A DNA stretch of 64,000 nt from an uncultured Clostridia bacterium (GTDB taxonomy: Bacteria; Bacillota; Clostridia; TANB77; CAG-508), in NCBI GenBank assembly GCA_947573445.1, contig CANPFR010000005.1:1-64000 (forward strand). The letters are read 5' to 3'. The first letter of the stretch is position 1; each line of letters starts with the position of its first letter. The translations under genes and the position numbers were made by a program. Shown here piece by piece: positions 43,501 through 55,337 of this stretch. Under the pieces are notes generated by a model, which did not search any database, was not told the DNA's origin, and worked only from the letters and a program-made list of their open reading frames with translations.

Positions 43501-44226
43501 TTATTTCTTTTTTGATTTCATCAAATAATAATCCGTTATAATTCTTATAAAATTTTTAGGAGTAACATAATCTTCATTCTCAAAAAGTTTAAAAATTCCC
43601 TTATTTCCAATATCATCTCTATATCTATTAACAGAATTTAGAGCATTTCTCATTGCAGGTCTAACAGATTCCGTTGAAACATTAAATTCTTCTGAAATTA
43701 AATTAAAAAGATTCCTTAAAGAAATTTTTAATTCTGGTTTTTCATAACATTTTTGAATGGCATATTTAAAATACTTTGCTCCCATAAGTTCATTATATAA
43801 ATTTAATTTATAGAATAGTGCTGTTAAATTATCATCAGTTGGTTCAGAGTAGACATCATTATCTATTTTATAATACTCTATACCTTTTTTGATTTCTTTA
43901 TAATTCAAAGGAAGATATAGTAATTTATATAGTTTGGACACAAAATCAAATGCTAATTTCTCATTATCATTTTCTAAAGTAATGATAATATTACAATTTT
44001 TCCTTTCATGTGATGTAGAAGAAAGTTCATTTACTATTTCAGTATAATCTATATCTTCAAAATTTGAATTTATGATTAAAATATCTGGCTGCATTTCATA
44101 GTATTTATTTAGTGTAGTAATTCCAGTGTTAGCACTGATTATATCAAGACTTTTATCATTTGCAAGATACTCACAGCAGTTTTGACTTGCTTGAGGATTT
44201 TTGTCCGCTACCAAAACTTTAAACAA
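43501..44226 (-). CDS. Spo0A-like protein with degenerate receiver
   Basis: A 241-residue protein. A receiver-like N-terminus (FKVLVADKNPQASQNCCEYL) in which the phospho-Asp position of the PDILII strand is Asn53. The C-terminal domain (about 125-241) matches Spo0A DNA-binding: LFNLISEEFNVSTESVRPAM, then FKLFENEDYVTPKNFIRI. It is therefore probably a DNA-binding regulator that is not switched by phosphorylation. I chose the TTG at 44226 because GGAGG lies eight bases before it; a GTG at 44241 overlaps that region. It faces the NUDIX gene. Confidence 0.82.
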   Translation of the reverse strand: MFKVLVADKNPQASQNCCEYLANDKSLDIISANTGITTLNKYYEMQPDILIINSNFEDIDYTEIVNELSSTSHERKNCNIIITLENDNEKLAFDFVSKLYKLLYLPLNYKEIKKGIEYYKIDNDVYSEPTDDNLTALFYKLNLYNELMGAKYFKYAIQKCYEKPELKISLRNLFNLISEEFNVSTESVRPAMRNALNSVNRYRDDIGNKGIFKLFENEDYVTPKNFIRIITDYYLMKSKKK

Positions 44227-44796
44227 TGTCAGAACCTCCACAAATATTATATATCAAAAAAATCTACATAAAGCAGTATATCATAACTGCTTATGTAAAG
44301 TCAATATCTACAAATGAAATTTTATAAAAAATTAAAACAATTCATATATATATTCATATGGAAAAACATTGGAAATAATTGAAATTACTTGATTTATAAA
44401 ATAATGTTAACATGGATAATTTAAAAAATATTTATAAATCAATCATTACTACAAACATAAAGTAAAATAGCCTTTTTTAACCTTTTATAGCCCTTTTTGG
44501 CTTTTTAAACAATGAATCTTTTAAAGAATTTATAATGTGTACTGCTTAGTTAAATTCTAAAAGAGCTTAAAAAGGAATTAACACAAATGAAAAAATAGCT
44601 TTTAAAATAGTTTTTTAGAATCTAATTAAAGTACGAACTCCTATTTTTAAACTCCTTTTAGAATTGAGAGCCAATTTCTTTAAGGAGTTTTTTATATTGT
44701 GAAGCATATAGGAATTCATAATAAGATTCTGCTACATTGTCGTAGTCCTACCAATATTCATTTCAAAAATTTGAAATGAATAGGAGGAAAGGTTGG
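44227..44796 (+). promoter_or_regulatory. gene-free leader with long-range and local hairpins
   Basis: No gene is visible in this 570-base stretch. It holds AATTCTAAAAGAG (44553-44565), inversely matched by CTCCTTTTAGAATT (44652-44665); a terminator-like hairpin AACTCCTT/AAGGAGTT (about 44649-44690) with a T run; and ATTCATTTCAAA/TTTGAAATGAAT (44756-44781), a perfect 12-base repeat ending on the ribosome site of the sigma-like gene. The last could hide that site and delay translation; the first two look like competing transcript folds. Confidence 0.5.
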
Positions 44797-45252
44797 GTGC
44801 AATACGAAGTAGATAGTTATATTTTAGAGTATGTAGAAAAGGATGATAAATATTACATATCTTTTTTAGATAGTGCCAAAAAAAATTGTAGAATGGAAAT
44901 AACAAAGGATATATTTAATGCTTATATTAATTCGAAAAAAGCATACACAAAAATCAATAATGAAGTCAGTAGGCATATAGAACATTTATATTTAAGCGAT
45001 ACAGAAATTTATAATAGATCTTTTCATAAGGAAAAAAATGTTGAAGATATGGTTTTAGAGAATATAGACAAAGAAATACTAATGAAGGCTTTAGGAAATC
45101 TAACAGAAACGCAAGTCAGAAGAATAGAACTACATATTATCAATGAAATTACGATAAGAGATGTTGCCAAACTTGAAAAAGTTCAAAAAAGACAGATTGA
45201 AAAAAGTTTATCATTAGGATTCAAAAAATTAAAAAAATTTTTTGAAAAATAG
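44797..45252 (+). CDS. sigma-70 region 4-like regulator of the mobile element
   Basis: A 151-residue protein. The C-terminal third is a sigma region 4-type HTH: LTETQVRRIELHIINEITIRDVAKLEKV, then KRQIEKSLSLGFKKLK. The N-terminal part is basic and mixed. Genes of this type sit upstream of excisionase and integrase in Tn916-like integrative elements, as here. Start is GTG at 44797, nine bases after TAGGAGG; an ATG at 44776 overlaps that site. Its last bases are partly repeated at 52445-52470, before the second RNA copy. Confidence 0.75.
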   Translation: MQYEVDSYILEYVEKDDKYYISFLDSAKKNCRMEITKDIFNAYINSKKAYTKINNEVSRHIEHLYLSDTEIYNRSFHKEKNVEDMVLENIDKEILMKALGNLTETQVRRIELHIINEITIRDVAKLEKVQKRQIEKSLSLGFKKLKKFFEK

Positions 45253-45590
45253 GGGAGGACAAAATCAAGTTTTGTGAGGAAGTAAGTGAAGGAGTAAAAA
45301 CTCTTTCGCTTATTCCTATAAAAAGATAAAAGTACATTGAAAATTGAATAACATTCATCAAATAAACACTTTATTAAGAGCTAGTTAATTACAAAAGCAA
45401 GATTGTAAACTTAAATATTGGTTAGCAACCAATAAGGCGATGATTAATAAAGAAGAATAATAAAACTTTTGTTTAGTCATAGAACGAGCGAGATAAAACC
45501 GTCCCAAGCAATGAAAACAAGTCTGAATTCAGATAGGTATAATTCCTAAGGAGTAATGTAGCTGATTACTATTTGATGAATTAAAACATT
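45253..45590 (+). ncRNA. structured RNA candidate, copy 1
   Basis: Begins with GGGGAGGACAAAATC at the sigma-like stop. It shares with copy 2 (52471-52790) a 5' hairpin (GTAAGTGAAGG.../CTCTTTC.CTTATT), GAAAATTGAATAA, GAGCTAGTTAAT (45378-45389) and the invariant 20-mer ACGAGCGAGATAAAACCGTC (45484-45503). Stems differ in sequence but pair in both: TTACAA/TTGTAA (45389-45408), ATTGGTT/AACCAAT (45417-45433, followed by AAGGCGA in both), TAGG/CCTA (45534-45548) and GTAAT/ATTAC (45553-45569). No open frame spans it. I do not recognise a known RNA class. Confidence 0.72.
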
Positions 45591-45722
45591 GATTTAATAA
45601 GAAATTTGAAGCAATATTTTATAAGATAATATAAATGACGTTGAAAATATGAAATATATCGTATATGGAGGTTTATAGGAAACCTACTAAAAACCTAAAT
45701 ATTTTCATAAAGGAGAGAAAAT

Positions 45723-46316
45723 TTGAAAAAATTAAGTAAAAAAATTTTATTAGGAGCAACAGTGGCAATAATTGGAATTAGTTCAATTATTATAGGTACT
45801 CGTTCAAAATATTTTAATCAAATTACAGGAGATGGTTCGATAGAAGTTGCCAAATGGTATTTTGATATAAATGGGGCTACTGAAACAATTGCTACGATAG
45901 ATTTATCCGAAACTTATAATAAAGATACATTGGTAAATGGGAAAATTGCACCTGGAACAAAAGGGAAATTTGATTTAGTTGTTAATGCAGGAGACAGTGA
46001 TGTAGCAGTAAAATATGATGTTGTTTTTTCTAATGAACAGAATCGACCAGAAAATTTAAAGTTTACTTGTAACGGTGTAGAATTACCAGAATCAAAGGAA
46101 GGAATTACAGGATATAATTCTATTTTTACAGGAATTATTAAACCCGAAGATGATAGAACAGTAACATTACCAATAGAATGGGAATGGAAATACGAAACTG
46201 GAACAGAATCTGAAATAGAATCAAATGATAAAAAAGACACAGAAAACGGAGTAAATGCAAATAATTATACTTTCGATATTGTTGTAAGCGGTACACAAGT
46301 TATTCCTACAAGGTAA
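45723..46316 (+). CDS. camelysin/TasA-like secreted protein
   Basis: A 197-residue protein. A basic start and hydrophobic stretch (5-25) is followed by TRSKYFNQITGDGSIEVAKW, the cleavage-and-mature layout of SipW-dependent TasA/camelysin proteins. Then comes a beta-rich body with NGKIAPGTKGKFDLVV and EWEWKYETG. The SipW-type signal peptidase is the next gene. Such proteins form surface fibres or bind the wall. Start is TTG at 45723, with AAAGGAGAG before it. Its body is paralogous to the C-terminal half of the 47284 gene. Confidence 0.78.
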   Translation: MKKLSKKILLGATVAIIGISSIIIGTRSKYFNQITGDGSIEVAKWYFDINGATETIATIDLSETYNKDTLVNGKIAPGTKGKFDLVVNAGDSDVAVKYDVVFSNEQNRPENLKFTCNGVELPESKEGITGYNSIFTGIIKPEDDRTVTLPIEWEWKYETGTESEIESNDKKDTENGVNANNYTFDIVVSGTQVIPTR

Positions 46317-46318
46317 AA

Positions 46319-46756
46319 ATGAGAACAATTGCAAAAATTATATTGACACTAATTTTCTCTTTGTTATTAAGTTTGGTTGCATTTTATCATACGGATTATG
46401 ATGGCTTAATAGCAAAAATTTTTGGAATTGGTATATTAAAAGTCGAATCTGGTAGTATGGAACCAGAAATTTCGATTGGAGATATTATTATCATTAAAGA
46501 ATGTGAGCAATACAAGATAAATGATATTATTACTTATAAGGTCGATAATCAGTATCTTGTAACACATAGAATTGTGGAAGGAAACGGAAATAGCTTTGTA
46601 ACAAAAGGCGACAATAATAATGCGATTGATAATAAGAAAATCGCAAAAGAAAGTATTGAAGGTAAAGTAATCTATAAATCAAATTTCTTAAAATTACTTT
46701 ATAATCATTGGATTATAGTAGTTTTATTAATTTTTTGTATTTTAATAATATGTTAA
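46319..46756 (+). CDS. SipW-type (ER-type) signal peptidase I
   Basis: A 145-residue membrane enzyme: N-terminal helix (8-25), VESGSMEPEI with catalytic Ser, and YLVTHRIVEG, where His replaces the usual catalytic Lys, the hallmark of SipW/ER-type peptidases. FVTKGDNNNAID follows, then a C-terminal transmembrane helix. It should cleave the camelysin/TasA-like proteins encoded on both sides. The ATG is only two bases after the upstream stop. Confidence 0.9.
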   Translation: MRTIAKIILTLIFSLLLSLVAFYHTDYDGLIAKIFGIGILKVESGSMEPEISIGDIIIIKECEQYKINDIITYKVDNQYLVTHRIVEGNGNSFVTKGDNNNAIDNKKIAKESIEGKVIYKSNFLKLLYNHWIIVVLLIFCILIIC

Positions 46757-46768
46757 GGAGAAAGCAAA

Positions 46769-47269
46769 ATGGAGATTAAAAAAAAGAAAGTCATAAGACT
46801 GGTTTTGATAGTTATCTTAATTATCATTATGTTGTTACTTTGGTTGGGGCTTATGAATAGTAAAGGTTCTTTGAGATATAAAAAAAGAATCAATTCAAGT
46901 GAAATGGCAGAAGCATCAAAACCAGTTTTTGTTGTAGATGGTAATAGTAATATAAAAATTGATGGAATTGAAGATACAGTTTATAAATTTAGTGTAAAAA
47001 ACTATGATAAAACAGGAAAAAGTAATATTGATTTGAGATATTCTATCCAAATTGTGAATAATTCACAAGTGGATCTGGATTTTATACTGACTAATGAGGA
47101 AGGGCTAGTTAATTTAAACAATAATAAAACAGGCTTAATCTTATTATCAAGTTCAAAAAAGCAAAGTGATGAATATCAGCTAAAAATTAAGTACAAAAAC
47201 AATCCTGCAATAACGTCTGACATTGATGGCAATATACAAATAAAGGTTGAGACCACAGAAGAAAGATGA
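46769..47269 (+). CDS. membrane-anchored surface protein of the SipW operon
   Basis: A 166-residue protein. Residues 8-30 are a strong membrane helix after a Lys-rich start. The rest is beta-rich, with VYKFSVKNYD and SIQIVNNSQVDLDFIL segments like the first strands of TasA-like domains. Function unknown; probably a surface component matured or assembled with its neighbours. AAGGAG precedes the ATG. Confidence 0.6.
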   Translation: MEIKKKKVIRLVLIVILIIIMLLLWLGLMNSKGSLRYKKRINSSEMAEASKPVFVVDGNSNIKIDGIEDTVYKFSVKNYDKTGKSNIDLRYSIQIVNNSQVDLDFILTNEEGLVNLNNNKTGLILLSSSKKQSDEYQLKIKYKNNPAITSDIDGNIQIKVETTEER

Positions 47270-47283
47270 AGGAGGGTTGAAAT

Positions 47284-48198
47284 ATGAAAAATGATAAAGA
47301 AAAAGAGTATTATGGGATTTATTTTAATGATGATATTCCCAAACTTGATAAAGTTAATAAATATAGAAAAGAAGTTCAAATTAAATTTGAAGGACGAGTT
47401 TTTTTAATTGAAAGAGATGAAAATGATAAAGTTGTTGAACGAACAGAGCTAGAAAATAATTACAAATTTAAAAAAGAAAGAGAGTATGAAATTGAATTTA
47501 TCAATTATATAGATAAAACATATCATTTAGAATTAAAAATACAATTATCTTATTGGTTTATTTTTCTACTATTATTTTTTGTAGGCTTTATCATTGGTAT
47601 GGTATTGTGTAAACCAAAGGCAATGAATAATTTATCTCTGGATAATTTTTATAGTTTTATTGATTTAGCAGTGCTTCAATTGGACATGGATAAGAATGAA
47701 TTAAATGTTAAACCAATTGGAAAAGAAGATACGAAAGAGGAACAAAAAAAGTACAATTTTGATGTGGAATTCAATCACATTGCATCTAATGATATAAATT
47801 TGACAGATACAATATCAGCAGAAAGTGTTGTAAAGAATAAAATTGCTCCAGGTATTGGTGGTAGTTTTTCTATTATAATGAACGCTAAAAAAAGTTCGGT
47901 AGATATGAGTTATTATGTGAAATTTGAAGATATAGTCAAAGAAAAACCAACTAATTTGAATTTCCAAGTTCGAGGTTCAGAAAAATCTTATTCTATGCTA
48001 CAAGAACTTGAAAAAGAGCTAAAAGGTAAATTAAACAAAAATTCAAAGGAAGAAATAATCATTGATTGGCAGTGGAAATATGAAACAGGCGAGGACAAAA
48101 ATTCTATCAATGAAAATGATTTATTAGATACAAGTGAAGGAAAATATTTAGAGAGTTATAAATTTAAAATTATAGTTGAAGGTGAGGAATCAGAATAG
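47284..48198 (+). CDS. fusion: N-terminal beta domain, membrane helix, camelysin-like domain
   Basis: A 304-residue protein. Residues 1-80 form a charged beta-rich domain with no signal peptide. A membrane helix at about 84-106 follows (WFIFLLLFFVGFIIGMVL). The rest is camelysin-like: NKIAPGIGGSFSIIMN and DWQWKYETGEDKN match NGKIAPGTKGKFDL and EWEWKYETG in the 45723 protein. The camelysin half should be outside and the first domain inside, an unusual layout for a family that is normally secreted. GAAGGAGG precedes the ATG. Confidence 0.65.
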   Translation: MKNDKEKEYYGIYFNDDIPKLDKVNKYRKEVQIKFEGRVFLIERDENDKVVERTELENNYKFKKEREYEIEFINYIDKTYHLELKIQLSYWFIFLLLFFVGFIIGMVLCKPKAMNNLSLDNFYSFIDLAVLQLDMDKNELNVKPIGKEDTKEEQKKYNFDVEFNHIASNDINLTDTISAESVVKNKIAPGIGGSFSIIMNAKKSSVDMSYYVKFEDIVKEKPTNLNFQVRGSEKSYSMLQELEKELKGKLNKNSKEEIIIDWQWKYETGEDKNSINENDLLDTSEGKYLESYKFKIIVEGEESE

Positions 48199-48234
48199 TT
48201 TTCCACTTTTTTATTTTATGGAAGGGAGAAGGTC

Positions 48235-48792
48235 ATGAAAGAAAATGTAAAGAAATTTTTATTGATTTTTATAATAGGGTTATTGATATTATGTGGTGTT
48301 ATATATATTAGTTATGCTGCCTATAAAACAAATGTGAGTGGAAATTCTATAACAGAAATAGCAACACCCAAGATAAGAATTATATCCGAAAATAACTATA
48401 ATGAAAATGATGATGAATATGCAAATACTGCAACAACTCATATAAAAGAATTAGATAATACAAGTGTATATTCAAATCAATTTAAAGTAGTTAATTATGA
48501 TGAACAAAATTATGTAACAGAAGTAGGAATGAATTACAAATTAAAATTAAGCTATACAGATAAGTTAGCTCCAATAGATGTAAAATTATACAAAATTGAA
48601 AATGATGGCACAGAAAAAGAAGTTGTTTTAAATGAGAAACTTGAAACGACTGATTTTTTTGAATTTATTGCAAATAAAAAAGAGGAGCAAAATTATAGGG
48701 TAGAATTAAATTTCAATTTATCTTCTGGAAAAATGGAAAAAAATGTTGATGTTAAGGTTGATGTCATTGCTACACAGGTATCACCGACATGA
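48235..48792 (+). CDS. TasA-like secreted protein 2
   Basis: A 185-residue protein. A signal-like helix (7-28) ends in SYAAYKTNVSGNSITEIATP, close to the SipW-dependent processing region (a break with 'AAY...T..SG.S...'). The mature part is beta-rich and acidic. Its end overlaps the next gene by four bases. Probable substrate of the SipW-type peptidase in the same operon. Confidence 0.7.
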   Translation: MKENVKKFLLIFIIGLLILCGVIYISYAAYKTNVSGNSITEIATPKIRIISENNYNENDDEYANTATTHIKELDNTSVYSNQFKVVNYDEQNYVTEVGMNYKLKLSYTDKLAPIDVKLYKIENDGTEKEVVLNEKLETTDFFEFIANKKEEQNYRVELNFNLSSGKMEKNVDVKVDVIATQVSPT

Positions 48793-48815
48793 CAGGAAAG
48801 GAGAAAAATTATAAT

Positions 48816-50186
48816 ATGAAAAAACTAAAAAAGAGATATCTAATTGTAATAATAATGTGTATGATTTTACTGTTAATTGGAATTACATATAAGATATATG
48901 CAAAATACGTTTTATCAGAAAATATAATTGCATTTCATATTGATAAATTAATGGAAGATAAAGTAAAACCAACAATTGATGCAATTGATCCAGACAATAA
49001 CGATACGTCTTTAACTGATGAAGAACATTATACCAATAAAAATACTACGATAGATTATGAGGATAATATTAAAGTTGAAACAGCAAAATACTGGTATAAT
49101 AAAGATGAAAAAGAATTTTATGGTGAAGGAAACAACTTTGAATCAGGAACAACTTTTGTAGATGAAGGATGGTATAAAATTGAAGTGGTTGATATTTTTG
49201 AAAACAGAAATACAGTTATCCTACTAATTGATAAAACTGCTCCTACAATAAATGCAGATGCAATTAATATTTCAGATGAAACAAAAAATAGAAGCACGTC
49301 AAGCTCAATTGATAGTAGCGAGTTTAAAATGTGGTTTAACAGTGATGTTAATTTATCAGAATATGACAAATATGGAATTCAATACACTTGCTATAAAGTA
49401 AATGAAAACGAGCCAATGTTCAATTCTGTTTTTGCAGAAAAAAGAGATATTGGCAAAGGAGCAATTGATGTCTGGAATTTGACAACAAAAAATTATTATT
49501 TTATTACAGCAACAGACCTTTGTAGCAATAAGTCTGCATTAGTAATTGCGATAGATAAAATTAAACCTAATATTTTGACACTATCAACAAATTACGCAGA
49601 ATCTAATGAGGACATTACAATTAAATATAATGATGATTTTTCAGGAATAAAATCTGCTAAGTATTCTTTTGATGTAAATGCAGATAGTTTTACTACATAT
49701 GCAGATATAACGAATGATACCATTTTATCAGATAATGGTTATTATCGCTTTATATTAGAAGATATTGCCGGAAACGTTAATGAATATACAGTGGCAATAG
49801 ATAAGTTATCGCCAGTAATAAGTTTAAAACCAGACGAAAAAGAAGTAGAAATTTATGCTAATACTACGAATGATACAATTAAGGAAACAACAGACATAAC
49901 TTTAACAACAAGTGATAATTTTGCAATAGATTATAACGAATATTGGTATAATCCAAATTCAGATTCATTTGATGGTAATGGAACAAAATTTGACAATGGA
50001 AAGAAATTGACTGATGAGGGGTACTATAAAATTACAAGCCATGATACCTTTGGAAATACTACAACAATTATTGTCTTGTTAGATAAAACGCCACCAGAAG
50101 TAACAGTAACTTATCATAAAAAAAGAGATATAAGTTTAACTAATACAAGAGATATTTTAAGAAACGGAGGTGTATATAATGGCTAA
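48816..50186 (+). CDS. surface protein with Ig-like repeats
   Basis: A 456-residue protein. An N-terminal membrane helix (about 8-28) is followed by at least three bacterial Ig-like repeats, each with a K/E-YWYN or SAKYS core and an ending such as DEGWYKIEVVDIFEN, DNGYYRFILEDIAGN or DEGYYKITSHDTFGN, then an IDKxxP linker. The same repeat closes the broken beta-helix protein that follows. Likely an adhesin or fibre part. I chose the ATG at 48816 because AAAGGAG precedes it. It ends without a wall-sorting motif. Confidence 0.72.
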   Translation: MKKLKKRYLIVIIMCMILLLIGITYKIYAKYVLSENIIAFHIDKLMEDKVKPTIDAIDPDNNDTSLTDEEHYTNKNTTIDYEDNIKVETAKYWYNKDEKEFYGEGNNFESGTTFVDEGWYKIEVVDIFENRNTVILLIDKTAPTINADAINISDETKNRSTSSSIDSSEFKMWFNSDVNLSEYDKYGIQYTCYKVNENEPMFNSVFAEKRDIGKGAIDVWNLTTKNYYFITATDLCSNKSALVIAIDKIKPNILTLSTNYAESNEDITIKYNDDFSGIKSAKYSFDVNADSFTTYADITNDTILSDNGYYRFILEDIAGNVNEYTVAIDKLSPVISLKPDEKEVEIYANTTNDTIKETTDITLTTSDNFAIDYNEYWYNPNSDSFDGNGTKFDNGKKLTDEGYYKITSHDTFGNTTTIIVLLDKTPPEVTVTYHKKRDISLTNTRDILRNGGVYNG

Positions 50187-52440
50187 ATATAGAATAATTA
50201 CAATATTCATCTTATTGCTGATTTTATTGCAAACAATTATGCCTTTATGTTATGCAATATCAGAATGCGAAAATATAACAAATGAAGATATTGAGATTTT
50301 AACAGAAGAAAATAATAATACTAAGAATGAAATAACAGTTAAAGATACAAAGAATAAAACAACCAAAGATGAAACAAAGAAAGCTCTTAAAACAAAAGAT
50401 AAAGAAGAAATGAATTCGAGTGAAGACAATAGTGAAACAGTTTTTGAGAATGAAATAGAAAATATAACTGAAGAAAATGCAAATGCAGGAATTTCGGTTA
50501 TGTCAGCATCTGGTTTTGGAGTAGGTGCTGGAAATGAAAATGAATTTAGAAATGCGTTTTATAATACAGGTGTTTCAGAATTAACGACAAGCCAAGTTAT
50601 TCGATTAACCTCTTCTTATACAGTCAATCACAATATAAGAATTAATTCATCGTCTACCAGTGGTGAAAATTCAATTCATTTATCTTCTGGTTGCAATATT
50701 GTTGTCCCAAATGGTTGTGTATTGACACTTGATCGGTATAGTAATTGATGGTAGAACTTGGGGAAATGATGATGGAAAAAGTTGTATTACAGTTCAAAAT
50801 GGAGGAGTTCTGATGTTAATTGACCACTCTATTATAGATGGAGGAACAAGAAATTGGGGTATCAATGTAGAACCAGGTGGGCAATTATTGATTGTATCAG
50901 CCCAAATAAGTTATTGTGATCGTGGTATTGTCTTGCAAGGAAATTCGTATTGTGATTTAGCCTCTGGAACAGCAGTGCAATGGTGGGGAAACGATGGAAA
51001 AGCTGTTGATATTACTCATAATTCAGTAGGAATTTATTGTGGTGGAAATTATAGAGGAACACTTGTGGTAAATCACACAACGCAAAATACTGAAAAAATA
51101 AACTTTGAAGAAAATAGTTGGGGAATTTTTGCAGAGGCTCATTCAGGTTCAATCAATGTAATTCGTGCTAGAATGGTAAGGAATCGGATGGGCAATTTAT
51201 ACGCATGGAAATATGGTAATTAACAATGTGAATGGTGCATTGAATACAAGAGGAATTGTAAACGACCGGTGGAACTGTTAATTTTGATAGTGGCAGTTTT
51301 TACTCTAGTGCATCAGAATTAAAAGAATACGGAATATACAATAATTCTGGAACAGTTAATGTACGAGGTGGAAATGTTTATAATGACAATGTAGGAATTT
51401 TTAACGCAGGAACAATAAATATGTCAGCTGGAACAGTAGGCAGTTGTACTACAGGAATTGAAAATTATGGAACAGTGAATTTTACAGGTGGAACATTATC
51501 TGGAGGAACTTATGGTGTGCAAAATAGTGGCAATTATAATATGAATGGAGGACAAATTACCAGCTATCTTACTGGTGTTAGAAATCTTGCTAATTTTAAT
51601 ATAAGTGGAGGTTCTATCAGCAATAATTCGGTGTATGGAATTGTGAATGAAGCATCAAACACTATTACAGGACAAGTTTATATGACAGGTGGAAATATAA
51701 CATCAAATTCAAAGTATGATATTTATCATGGAAAATCAGATACAGATGGAGCAGGTGCAGTTTATGGTGGACTTAGAATCGAAAGAAATGATACAGTCAA
51801 TAGTTCAATACTTTTGGCTGGGTATAACAATTATATATATACTGGTAATAATACGCCACAAATCAACTCCATAACATTAGCAGATGCACACTTGGAAAGG
51901 TTAATAATAAGATCAGCTGATACAAATAATGCTGAAACAATGCAAAATAGAATTAACGTAAGAAATAAAGGAAGTTTTTATTGTAAAGCAAATGCCACAA
52001 ATCATTCAAATCATGTAGTTTTATGGACTAATTATACAGTTACAACCCAATACCAAACAAAAGATGGAAAAACATTAGATGTAACTACGAAAACTTATGA
52101 ATATAAACAGGATTATACAACAGAAGCTAAGACAATAGAAGGATATATTTTGTCAGAAACACCATCAAATGCAAATGGCACGACCAATGGAGATATTACC
52201 GTAATATATTATTATGAGGATGATTCAAATGTAGCTGTTGTCAATTACAAAGACCTTTTATCAGGTATTATTTCTGCAAAATATTGGTACAATGAAAATG
52301 GTGAAAATTTTAGTGGAAATGGAATGAATTTTGAAGATGGTAAAATCTTTGAAGAATATGGTTTTTATAAGATAGTTGTGACAAATTCAGTAGGGCTAAC
52401 CAAAACTGTTACATTTTCTTTAAATAAAGAGAGTATTTAA
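50179..52440 (+). pseudogene. beta-helix/MucBP/Ig-like surface protein broken by three frameshifts
   Basis: Starts at the ATG at 50179 (GGAGG upstream) with a signal peptide (to about 30). The frame runs to 50748, continues in the next frame from about 50729, moves again near 51205-51213 and again near 51262, then stays open to TAA at 52438-52440. Each change is +1, consistent with one extra base each time. Joined, it would be about 750 residues: an Asn/Thr/Lys-rich start, right-handed beta-helix repeats (GGTLSGGTYGVQNSGNYN pattern), a MucBP-like segment (VTTQYQTKDGK, EGYILSETP) and one Ig-like repeat. Real pseudogene or assembly errors. Confidence 0.7.
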
Positions 52441-52470
52441 GAAAAATTTTATTAAAAAATTTTAGAAACA

Positions 52471-52790
52471 GGGGAGGACAAAATCCTGTTTTCTGATTAA
52501 GTAAGTGAAGGGGAAAAACTCTTTCACTTATTTTGTTTTATAAAAGCACATTGAAAATTGAATAAAATTCATTAGATACATAGATAACGGAGCTAGTTAA
52601 TATATGGTTTTAAACTATATAACTTAAATATAAGGTAGCGACTTATAAGGCGAAGATGTTAATAAGATACTTTTGCATAGTCATAGCACGAGCGAGATAA
52701 AACCGTCGTACGCAATGAGTGTAAGTCATTAGTAATGGCTAGGGAAACATAACCCTAATGGTGCAATTCGCAAATTGCAGTTTAATGAAT
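52471..52790 (+). ncRNA. structured RNA candidate, copy 2
   Basis: Second copy of the RNA at 45253. Conserved: GGGGAGGACAAAATC, the 5' hairpin, GAAAATTGAATAA, GAGCTAGTTAAT (52590-52601) and ACGAGCGAGATAAAACCGTC (52688-52707). Compensated stems: TATAT/ATATA (52601-52621), ATAAG/CTTAT (52630-52646) before AAGGCGA, TAGGG/CCCTA (52740-52757) and GCAATT/AATTGC (52763-52778). The region just before it (52445-52470) resembles the 3' end of the sigma-like gene, so the duplication extends slightly into that gene. A small membrane protein, excisionase and integrase follow. Confidence 0.72.
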
Positions 52791-52840
52791 AAAATTGCAG
52801 TTATTTTAAAGGTAACTATAAAATAGAAGGAGAAAAGTTT

Positions 52841-52969
52841 ATGGATATTGAAATGATTAGATTTACAGGTTTATTATCAATTATGTTGTTAATCGGCTGG
52901 ATATTCATTACCATATTTTTTATTATAATTGATAAAAATATGAATAAAAAAGACGAGGAACAAAAATAG
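52841..52969 (+). CDS. small single-pass membrane protein
   Basis: A 42-residue protein. Hydrophobic helix at about 9-33, then a charged tail ending KKDEEQK. Strong ribosome site AGAAGGAGAAAAG before the ATG at 52841. It follows RNA copy 2. Not recognised; small proteins of this type often precede xis-int genes. Confidence 0.6.
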   Translation: MDIEMIRFTGLLSIMLLIGWIFITIFFIIIDKNMNKKDEEQK

Positions 52970-53063
52970 AAAACAAATGAAATATAAGAGTAAAGAAAAT
53001 ATAAACAGAAATATGCTAAGGAACAAGGCTTAGTATAATTTTTATTAGAAGGAGTGAATGAAA

Positions 53064-53447
53064 ATGAATAATGATAATAATAACAACAATAAATATTCAA
53101 CAAAGGAAAATTTAGCATTTATTATTTTTACATATAAAACTATGAATTTTGAAACACGTGATAGTTTTATGGAAATATTGAATGAACTCATGGAAAAGCA
53201 GCAAAAGAAAGGTGAAATATTGGATAAAGTTGAAAAAGATAAGTTATCTATTTTGACAGATCATTGGGAATTGAATGAAATGCAAGTATTGGCATATAGT
53301 TTTTTGGTATTTAATCATTTCAAGATTTCTAAAGAGGATGTAACAGTTGAAAAAATAATTGATAATTACAAATATCAGTTAAACTTCTATTCTCCAGATA
53401 ATGCGGTAGAATTTGTTGACAGAAAACTTTTATTAGATTGGAGGTAA
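53064..53447 (+). CDS. hypothetical protein upstream of excisionase
   Basis: A 127-residue helical, acidic protein. An Asn-rich start (seven Asn in the first 12 residues) is followed by helical segments (FRTYKTMNFETRDSFMEIL-like; read from sequence as FTYKTMNFETRDSFMEIL). I chose the ATG at 53064 because AAGGAG is nine bases upstream; an ATG at 53058 is too close. Conserved position before xis suggests a role in element control; no family recognised. Confidence 0.6.
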   Translation: MNNDNNNNNKYSTKENLAFIIFTYKTMNFETRDSFMEILNELMEKQQKKGEILDKVEKDKLSILTDHWELNEMQVLAYSFLVFNHFKISKEDVTVEKIIDNYKYQLNFYSPDNAVEFVDRKLLLDWR

Positions 53448-53452
53448 AAATT

Positions 53453-53701
53453 ATGAGTGAAAGAATAATCTATACAGTTCAAGAAGTAGCAAAAATGTTA
53501 CATTCAAGTCCAAATTATATATACTTATTAATAGAAAAAGGGTATTTACCTGCAATGAAGTTAGGTAGTATTAAAATATTAAAATCTACTTTAGAAAAAT
53601 TCTTACTAGAGAACGAAGGAAACGACCTTTCTGATATAAATAATATAAAAAAATTAAATAATATTAATACAGTAGGAGAGTTTAATAATGGCAAATGTTA
53701 A
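53453..53701 (+). CDS. excisionase (MerR-like HTH)
   Basis: An 82-residue protein: IIYTVQEVAKMLHSSPNYIYLLIEKGYLPAMKLG is the excisionase/HTH_17 pattern, followed by a short helix. It should bind the element ends and steer the integrase toward excision. ATG 53453 has GGAGG upstream; a TTG at 53438 in frame overlaps the previous gene. It overlaps the integrase start by 14 bases, so xis and int are translated together. Confidence 0.88.
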   Translation: MSERIIYTVQEVAKMLHSSPNYIYLLIEKGYLPAMKLGSIKILKSTLEKFLLENEGNDLSDINNIKKLNNINTVGEFNNGKC

Positions 53702-54959
53702 TATAAGAAGAAGAGGAAAGGTATATCAATATCAGTTTGAAGTTGCACCAATTAATGGAAAAAGAAAACAAGTAACTAAATCTGGATATAAAACTAAATT
53801 AGAAGCACAAGAAGCTGGAATAAAAGCCTATAATGAATATTTAAGTACTGGATTAGTTTTTAAGGAAAATCAAATTTCTTATTCAGATTATTTAGATTAT
53901 TGGTTAGAAAATTATTGCTGTTTAAATTTAAAATATAATACAATCCAAACATATACAACTATAGTAAATAAATATTTAAAACCCAATTTAGGTATGTATA
54001 GATTATCATCATTAACAAGTGTAAAGTTAAATTCTTTTATATCGGAAATATGCATGAAATATAGTTTTTCAAGAGCTTACTTTAGTAATATATTAAAAGT
54101 ATTAAAAGGTTCATTTAGAGAAGCATGTGACGTGTATGGATTTATTAAGTATAATCCAACAATTACTTTAAGGTTACCTAAGATAGATGAATTTAAGGAA
54201 GATATAAAGCATATATACACTCAAGATGAAATTGATAAGATTTTACAAAGATTTAATAATGATGATACATTCACTTGTGCTTTTCTCACATCTTGTTATA
54301 CAGGAATGAGAACAGGGGAAGTGTGTGCTTTAACTTGGAATGATATAGATCTAGTGAATCGAGTCATACACATCAGTCATAATGTTTATGATAAAAAGAA
54401 GGATGAAAAGGGAAGGTGGTTTTTAGGAACAACAAAAACAGTTACAGGAACAAGAAAAGTACATATAAGTAATACTTTATTTAATGCACTAAGAAATTAT
54501 CAAAAAAAACAATTTTATCTAAAAAATCTTTATGGTAAAGATTATCATTATTATCATCTTGAAGATGTAAAAAATAAATTTGGAAAAGTAGTTGAGCATA
54601 GAATTGTAGAAAATGAAAATAATCTGCTCACAGTAGATACAATAAATTTTGTATTTACAAGGGAAAATGGTATTTATTCAGGAACTGATATTACAAAATA
54701 TCCATATAGTATAGTTCATAATGAATTGGGAATTAAAAAATGCCGTTTTTATGATTTAAGAGGTAGTTATGCTACAAAGAGTTTAAAGAATGGAGTTGAA
54801 ATAAGAGATATAGCTGATATTTTAGGACATAAAAATATTGAAACTACAGAGAATTATTATATCTCTAGTTCTAAAGAATCGAGAAAAGATGCAAATGACA
54901 TATTTGAAAAGACAACACATTCTGAAATAATAGAAAAAATTTCTAATTATAGATACTAA
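53688..54959 (+). CDS. tyrosine recombinase (integrase)
   Basis: A 423-residue integrase. An AP2-like N-terminal arm-binding part (GKVYQYQFEVAPINGKRKQ), a core-binding helical domain (about 65-165), and a catalytic domain with TGMRTGEVCALTW (first Arg), a Lys in KTVTGTRKVHIS, FYDLRGSYATK (second Arg; the usual His before 'LR' is Tyr), ILGHKNIETT and the Tyr in ENYY. Length and layout fit Tn916-type integrases. It inserts and excises the element; the attachment site is expected just downstream. Confidence 0.93.
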   Translation: MANVNIRRRGKVYQYQFEVAPINGKRKQVTKSGYKTKLEAQEAGIKAYNEYLSTGLVFKENQISYSDYLDYWLENYCCLNLKYNTIQTYTTIVNKYLKPNLGMYRLSSLTSVKLNSFISEICMKYSFSRAYFSNILKVLKGSFREACDVYGFIKYNPTITLRLPKIDEFKEDIKHIYTQDEIDKILQRFNNDDTFTCAFLTSCYTGMRTGEVCALTWNDIDLVNRVIHISHNVYDKKKDEKGRWFLGTTKTVTGTRKVHISNTLFNALRNYQKKQFYLKNLYGKDYHYYHLEDVKNKFGKVVEHRIVENENNLLTVDTINFVFTRENGIYSGTDITKYPYSIVHNELGIKKCRFYDLRGSYATKSLKNGVEIRDIADILGHKNIETTENYYISSSKESRKDANDIFEKTTHSEIIEKISNYRY

Positions 54960-55163
54960 TTATATCTCACTTAAATAAAAAAATATAGAGTAACATTAAA
55001 TTTTTTTCCAGTGATATGGTAAGAATTAAAAGATATTGATATTTTTTATGCCAGATACTCTACATTTTATTGACATATTTATCTACTTATTATATAATTA
55101 AAAAAATCATATAATAAGTAGATATAAATGTTGACTCTGTCAACACTTTGTCAACGGTCATAA

Positions 55164-55337
55164 AATTACAATAATAAAATTGATACAATAAATATTTATA
55201 ATATTATTTTGGAATTGTATAGTATAAAAGAAAAAATAAATAATATTATAAATATGATAAATGTTCATAATATTGCAACAGTTTGTCCATGTGGAAGCGG
55301 TAAGAAATATAAAAACTGTTGCGGAAAAAGTCAGTAA
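55164..55337 (+). pseudogene. SEC-C motif tail, possible 3' end of secA at the element boundary
   Basis: One frame is open from 55164 to TAA at 55335-55337. It ends in ATVCPCGSGKKYKNCCGKSQ, the zinc-binding SEC-C motif found at the C-terminus of SecA (and some other proteins). There is no start with a ribosome site, and the upstream codons are AT-rich and unlike SecA. SecA is often directly before prfB in Firmicutes, and prfB is the next gene here. This looks like the tail of secA left beside the integrase after insertion into the gene's 3' end, but the secA body is not in this window. Confidence 0.45.
55288..55297 (+). repeat. attachment-like direct repeat, copy 1
   Basis: CATGTGGAAG lies inside the SEC-C codons (P-C-G-S). 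The same ten bases recur at 55716-55725, followed by codons that could read C-G-S-R-K-K-F-K. Candidate crossover core or duplicated attachment site. Confidence 0.3.

Follow-up and report, generated by a model that had tools for sequence, protein, structure and literature searches.

Two canT-family RNAs, probable cis-acting antitermination elements, flank the cargo operon of an integrative element in an uncultured Clostridia bacterium

The genome of an uncultured Clostridia bacterium carries two copies of a structured RNA on either side of a surface protein operon, raising the question of what this RNA does and why one element should carry it twice. The locus was analysed within a stretch of 64,000 nucleotides (the window), and its features are listed in Table 1. 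The 20-mer ACGAGCGAGATAAAACCGTC occurs exactly twice in the window (45484-45503 and 52688-52707), while shuffled sequences are expected to contain none; a preliminary description had reported this identical pair, and it had placed one copy before the surface operon and the other before xis-int, in agreement with the gene order. The stems named in that description were also found in place, namely P3 (TTACAA/TTGTAA vs TATAT/ATATA), P4 (ATTGG(TT)/(AA)CCAAT vs ATAAG/CTTAT), P7 (TAGG/CCTA vs TAGGG/CCCTA) and P8 (GTAAT/ATTAC vs GCAATT/AATTGC). All four pairs were right, but the list had missed P1, P5 and a boxA resembling that of rRNA operons. An Rfam scan of the window returned no family at the gathering threshold, and nothing above chance level at E up to 10, and a tRNA/tmRNA search returned none.

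Table 1. Positions of the features discussed (window coordinates unless a locus is named).
Feature	Position	Strand	Basis or remark
sigma-70-like regulator (Tn916 orf7 equivalent), directly before copy A	44776-45252	+	NCBIfam sigma70-ECF, E 2.9e-6, below curated cut-off
terminator-like hairpin before boxA of copy A	45276-45317	+	sequence; no long U-tract
rRNA-type boxA of copy A, AAGTACATTGAAAATTGAATA	45329-45350	+	AAAAGTACATTGAAAA common to same-genus 16S rRNA leaders
canT-family RNA, copy A	about 45331-45585	+	covariation; R1 225 bits, R2 217 bits (copy A in both training sets)
copy A helix P1	45352-45363/45571-45582	+	
copy A helix P4	45417-45421/45429-45433	+	
equivalent of Rfam pemK core in copy A, including 20-mer	45457-45551	+	projected from L023 (RF02913 match above gathering score)
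copy A helix P5	45468-45473/45516-45521	+	
copy A helix P8	45553-45558/45564-45569	+	
surface/secreted protein operon (cargo), ~7 kb, between copies	45723-52440	+	Pfam
S24-type signal peptidase, in cargo	46319-46756	+	Pfam
MucBP protein, in cargo	51421-52440	+	Pfam
intrinsic-terminator-like hairpin, gap between cargo operon and copy B	52499-52533	+	15-bp stem, U-rich tail
rRNA-type boxA of copy B, AAGCACATTGAAAATTGAATA	52543-52564	+	16S leader match; homologue counts
canT-family RNA, copy B	about 52545-52794	+	covariation; R1 219 bits, R2 200 bits (copy B in both training sets)
copy B helix P1	52566-52577/52780-52791	+	
copy B helix P4	52630-52634/52642-52646	+	
copy B helix P5	52672-52677/52720-52725	+	
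copy B helix P7	TAGGG 52740-52744/CCCTA 52753-52757	+	
copy B helix P8	52763-52767/52773-52778	+	
42-aa membrane-like ORF, first after copy B	52841-52969	+	ORF list
129-aa conserved protein, between RNA and xis	53058-53447	+	homologues similarly placed in L061, L062, L006
xis, excisionase HTH_17	53438-53701	+	Pfam HTH_17, NCBIfam excise
tyrosine integrase	53688-54959	+	Pfam Phage_integrase, E 1.9e-20
right attachment region (secA 3' end remnant), before prfB	55284-55328	+	45-nt, 89% match; intact secA on contig C8
c-di-GMP-I riboswitch, L112	2756-2843	-	
c-di-GMP-I riboswitch, L115	2755-2842	-	
c-di-GMP-I riboswitch, L117	3038-3130	-	
c-di-GMP-I riboswitch, L120	521-609	+	
c-di-GMP-I riboswitch, L125	2777-2866	-	

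The folds of copy A and copy B each beat dinucleotide shuffles (z = -4.4 in both cases). The P5 arm, the core stem, holds the 20-mer, and the closing stem P1 is altered on both sides between the copies (ATTCATCAAAT/ATTTGATGAAT vs ATTCATTAGAT/GTTTAATGAAT). As P1 covaries on both sides it must be transcribed, and the reading of boxA and P1 as a sigma-70 promoter (TTGAAA-N16/17-TAAATA) was therefore dropped. The 20-mer is also present in 17 stretches from other Clostridia assemblies. In a set of 15 full-length sequences, aligned without use of structure, 92.7% of the cells pair and two-sided changes are seen in 32 of the 66 pairs; the covariation is strong, at 0.275, whereas shuffling gives 0.138 and sliding the partners 0.05-0.09, and none of 500 shuffles reached the observed value. 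When the Tn916-like copy was included and the variable arm A removed (alignment A4, 19 sequences) 91.8% of the cells pair, 26/40 pairs show two-sided changes, and the covariation is 0.387 (shuffles, 0.182). The earlier claim of a functional structured RNA is thus supported with many homologues aligned, and the abundance of G-U pairs assigns the RNA to the + strand.

R1, a covariance model built from 11 sequences, all of them copies from uncultured Clostridia and none from Tn916, located the RNA in 19/53 genomes of the genus. R2, a model of 19 sequences and 66 pairs, extended this to 103/292 genomes of the family, representing 28/39 genera, and to 25/398 species of the phylum, spread over many families. 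Arm A is absent from L011-type members, which are natural short forms. The window's own genome (G000) contains a third copy (C4:8592-8758; L043, L072), also short and without arm A, which is followed by a short ORF and then by a serine recombinase. The exact 20-mer was not found in viral contigs, and the only matches in phage records were two copies identical to that of Tn916. One GC-rich copy (55%), with a Tn916-like integrase that is 67% identical, occurs in the low-GC genus (L034/L069, G030:C18), and is either a recent arrival or a contaminating contig.

The term 'duplicated', used in the preliminary description, needs correcting. Copies A and B, both AT-rich, are only 68% identical, and in the tree copy A groups with L058 and L089 while copy B groups with L095 and L062, in a different clade. 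These data argue against a recent tandem duplication and indicate that the copies met in a composite element. Consistent with such an origin, the sigma-like gene shares 66% identity with its L058 counterpart, and xis and int share 88% and 79%, respectively, with those of L061, a locus in which a single RNA precedes them. Another assembly (L012/L016, G024) has the same pair of copies, which shows that the arrangement is no assembly error of the window genome. Apart from this second assembly of the same element, no other equally close pair of RNAs on the same strand was present among the listed R2 matches.

The canT RNA of Tn916, located between orf8 and xis, mediates cis-acting, orientation-dependent, processive antitermination over several terminators, acts on foreign terminators and is inactive in trans (PMC11658703). 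A search of the Tn916-like element of pCF10 (L020) with R1 gave a match exactly in the orf8-xis gap of Tn925/Tn916, in the correct orientation, that scored 95.4 bits (E 4.6e-22); the runner-up reached 14.5 bits. The mutation canT(S3), in which ATA is changed to TGC, inactivates the RNA (PMC11658703); this ATA sits at L020 41922-41920, inside the conserved AUAAUGAUAC, and the letters there agree with those published. An inactive 162-nt canT deletion takes out the conserved core; on the other side, one 400-bp canT fragment is insensitive to S3 (PMC11658703). The window RNA and canT have in common the conserved core, a boxA in front and helices P1, P5, P6, P7 and P8, which covary in A4. On these comparisons the window RNA is homologous to canT, and both its structure and this homology are well supported. 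The position of canT, co-oriented with and lying after a sigma-like or orf8 gene and before xis-int, is matched by the window pair jointly, with copy A after the sigma-like gene and copy B before xis-int. The window departs from canT in that the single unit is split by a cargo operon flanked by two copies.

The canT region of Tn916 also matches the Rfam family RF02913 (pemK RNA), with 55 bits against a cut-off of 34.8. The cut-off was exceeded at each of 20 further loci, comprising the GC-rich same-genus L034 and 19 R2 matches from across the phylum, and same-genus L023, L033 and L037 match the family too. Copies A and B gave no match to RF02913 even at E 10 (gathering cut-off 34.8 bits) and are tied to pemK only via intermediates. 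The preliminary description had named a match to a known Rfam family as grounds for rejecting its reading; the two window copies give none, but homologues do, Tn916 canT among them. RF02913 models 61 positions (AUAAUGAUAC, P5, P6 and P7), whereas the unit described here spans ~250 nt and includes boxA, P1, arm A and P8; we regard RF02913 as the canT core. The canT paper (PMC11658703) reports no conserved structure and mentions neither boxA, pemK nor Rfam, and no statement of a link between pemK and canT was found in the literature searched. This kind of RNA is not wholly new, as its Tn916 member has a known function and pemK is already in Rfam.

Both copies have, in front of the fold, a boxA of nearly the same sequence as in 16S leaders of same-genus genomes, as in the boxA antitermination of rRNA operons (NusB/NusE), although rRNA leaders lack the large conserved fold that follows boxA in canT-family RNAs. 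The 16S rRNA of the window genome is missing from the assembly, and the comparison was therefore made with same-genus genomes, whose 16S leaders display AAAAGTACATTGAAAAGTAAACAATAAA immediately after the rRNA promoter; copy A has AAAAGTACATTGAAAATTGAATAA and Tn916 TGTTCTTTGAAAACTGAATAA. The boxA core was located between -60 and +40 of the RNA start in 65/74 homologues, compared with 1.9% of background windows, a count that is partly selected as R2 includes the boxA stretch. In L116, L119, L123 and L129, however, the model match begins later and boxA is found further upstream, where the model does not require it. The active 452-bp canT reporter fragment (PMC11658703) starts at TTGAAAACTG and hence is without the 5' half of boxA, so a full boxA may not be essential there. 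Upstream of boxA, at about -55 to -70 from the RNA start, a strict terminator-like hairpin is present in 28/74 loci (1.8% in background).

The genes around the RNA were defined by iterated profile searches on 74 distinct RNA loci, with PemK and recombinase calls checked against Pfam on a sample. Of the 69 loci whose flank is long enough, 55 have a sigma-like or orf8-like gene upstream; a tyrosine or serine recombinase lies downstream in 61/65. The same order of sigma-like gene, RNA and recombinase is evident in annotated records of the vanB element on pMG2200, of C. difficile and of Monoglobus, where TnpW and a serine recombinase follow. In several homologous loci short hydrophobic ORFs occupy the place that the 42-aa ORF has after copy B. 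In five elements from other species a c-di-GMP-I riboswitch (Table 1) precedes the sigma-like gene, at a distance of ~1 kb from the RNA, and the regulator of these elements may sense c-di-GMP. In a Tn916-like element the Rfam SQ2397 RNA (L110 2847-3076(-)), a cis-regulator of an HTH factor, lies before the sigma-like gene.

This context bears on whether the RNA could be a local cis-regulator, such as a riboswitch-like element or attenuator, that controls only the next gene. Rfam labels pemK 'Cis-reg', a PemK-like gene follows the RNA in 22 loci (two of which were confirmed by Pfam) and terminator-like hairpins lie nearby, all of which would fit such a role. The gene that follows, however, may be PemK, xis, TnpW, a tyrosine or serine recombinase or a surface operon, and this variety speaks for a general transcription role, for which a polymerase modifier fits better than one-gene control; neither copy A nor copy B has a PemK-like gene downstream. 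Furthermore, in none of the 74 loci is the RNA followed by a strict terminator over the next 125 nt, and the Tn916 homologue is processive on terminators that are foreign to it. Local control of the next gene is thus unlikely. Release by processing of a separate, trans-acting small RNA, to which the compact fold and the hairpin before boxA might point, is more improbable still, as no conserved terminator lies directly downstream, the Tn916 homologue does not act in trans, and boxA together with the fixed place before the recombinase fits a nascent RNA. Least probable, by a small measure, is that the sequence works as DNA (a single-strand fold, recombination site or hot-spot of cargo exchange), since, although copies from different clades flank the cargo block, many kept pairs are G-U and so hold on one strand only, canT acts in cis and depends on its orientation, as an RNA would, and exchange here could be a by-product of conservation.

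The element itself has the order sigma, canT-A, cargo, canT-B and xis-int. Divergent to the sigma-like gene is a response-regulator-like gene with a Spo0A-C domain (43501-44241 (-)), which is also found upstream in L058, L001, L002 and L005; it is a candidate repressor or sensor of the element. Downstream of both RNAs a 12/12 consensus promoter (55070-55098), flanked by the inverted repeats TATCTACTTATTATAT and ATATAATAAGTAGATA, points outwards at the right attachment site, and might allow transcription of genes on the far side of the circle junction independently of both RNAs. Contig C8 was considered as a candidate for the element's left end, with a terminator like T1 of Tn916. This was dropped, as directly after the intact secA of C8 lies another element (G000 C8:22150-23700, L138), whose integrase is related but only 45% identical; the sequences suggest that two elements are stacked at one secA site.

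Taken with the properties of canT, we consider it probable that copies A and B are two cis-acting processive antitermination RNAs of the canT family, serving the operons of a Tn916/Tn1549-like integrative element. Antitermination in this organism is inferred from Tn916 and fits the context. In the proposed mechanism, RNA polymerase coming from the region of the sigma-like regulator would transcribe the RNA, and the nascent boxA and a fold of several arms (a branched arm closed by P1, the P5 arm bearing the invariant core, and P6, P7 and P8) would act in cis on the transcribing polymerase. Host Nus factors probably take part at boxA, and the modified polymerase would pass terminators that it meets later. 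Most elements have just one RNA, standing between regulator and recombinase, which would serve transcription of the recombinase and, after circularization, of genes beyond the attachment junction. In the window, copy A would carry transcription across the surface operon and the hairpin that follows it, and copy B would presumably load again ahead of xis-int, giving a two-step use.

RNA-based processive antitermination, as proposed here, is known from EAR and from put of HK022 (PMC8955417, PMC11658703). The window gave no match to any Rfam family at the gathering threshold, and put was compared by its description. The conAn system of pLS20 also serves antitermination in a conjugative element and includes an RNA, but needs the protein ConAn1 in addition (PMC8955417). 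A relation to conAn2 of pLS20 gained no support, the best score of the RNA model in the pLS20 region being 15 bits, on the wrong strand. A broader reading, which we put forward tentatively, is that pemK, canT and the window RNA form one widespread nut-like class of antitermination RNA, a host-type boxA joined to a conserved fold, in Tn916/Tn1549-type elements, whether their recombinase is of the tyrosine or the serine type, and that the two diverged copies in series allow the cargo to be controlled separately from excision and transfer.

If these proposals are right, an Rfam motif of unknown role would gain a function and canT would be supplied with a comparative structure. The link to boxA is a testable prediction on which host factors join in. 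RNA antitermination would be general in Tn916/Tn1549-type elements, including those of the vanB type, and the two-copy element of the window would be a natural case of antitermination reloaded after a cargo operon.
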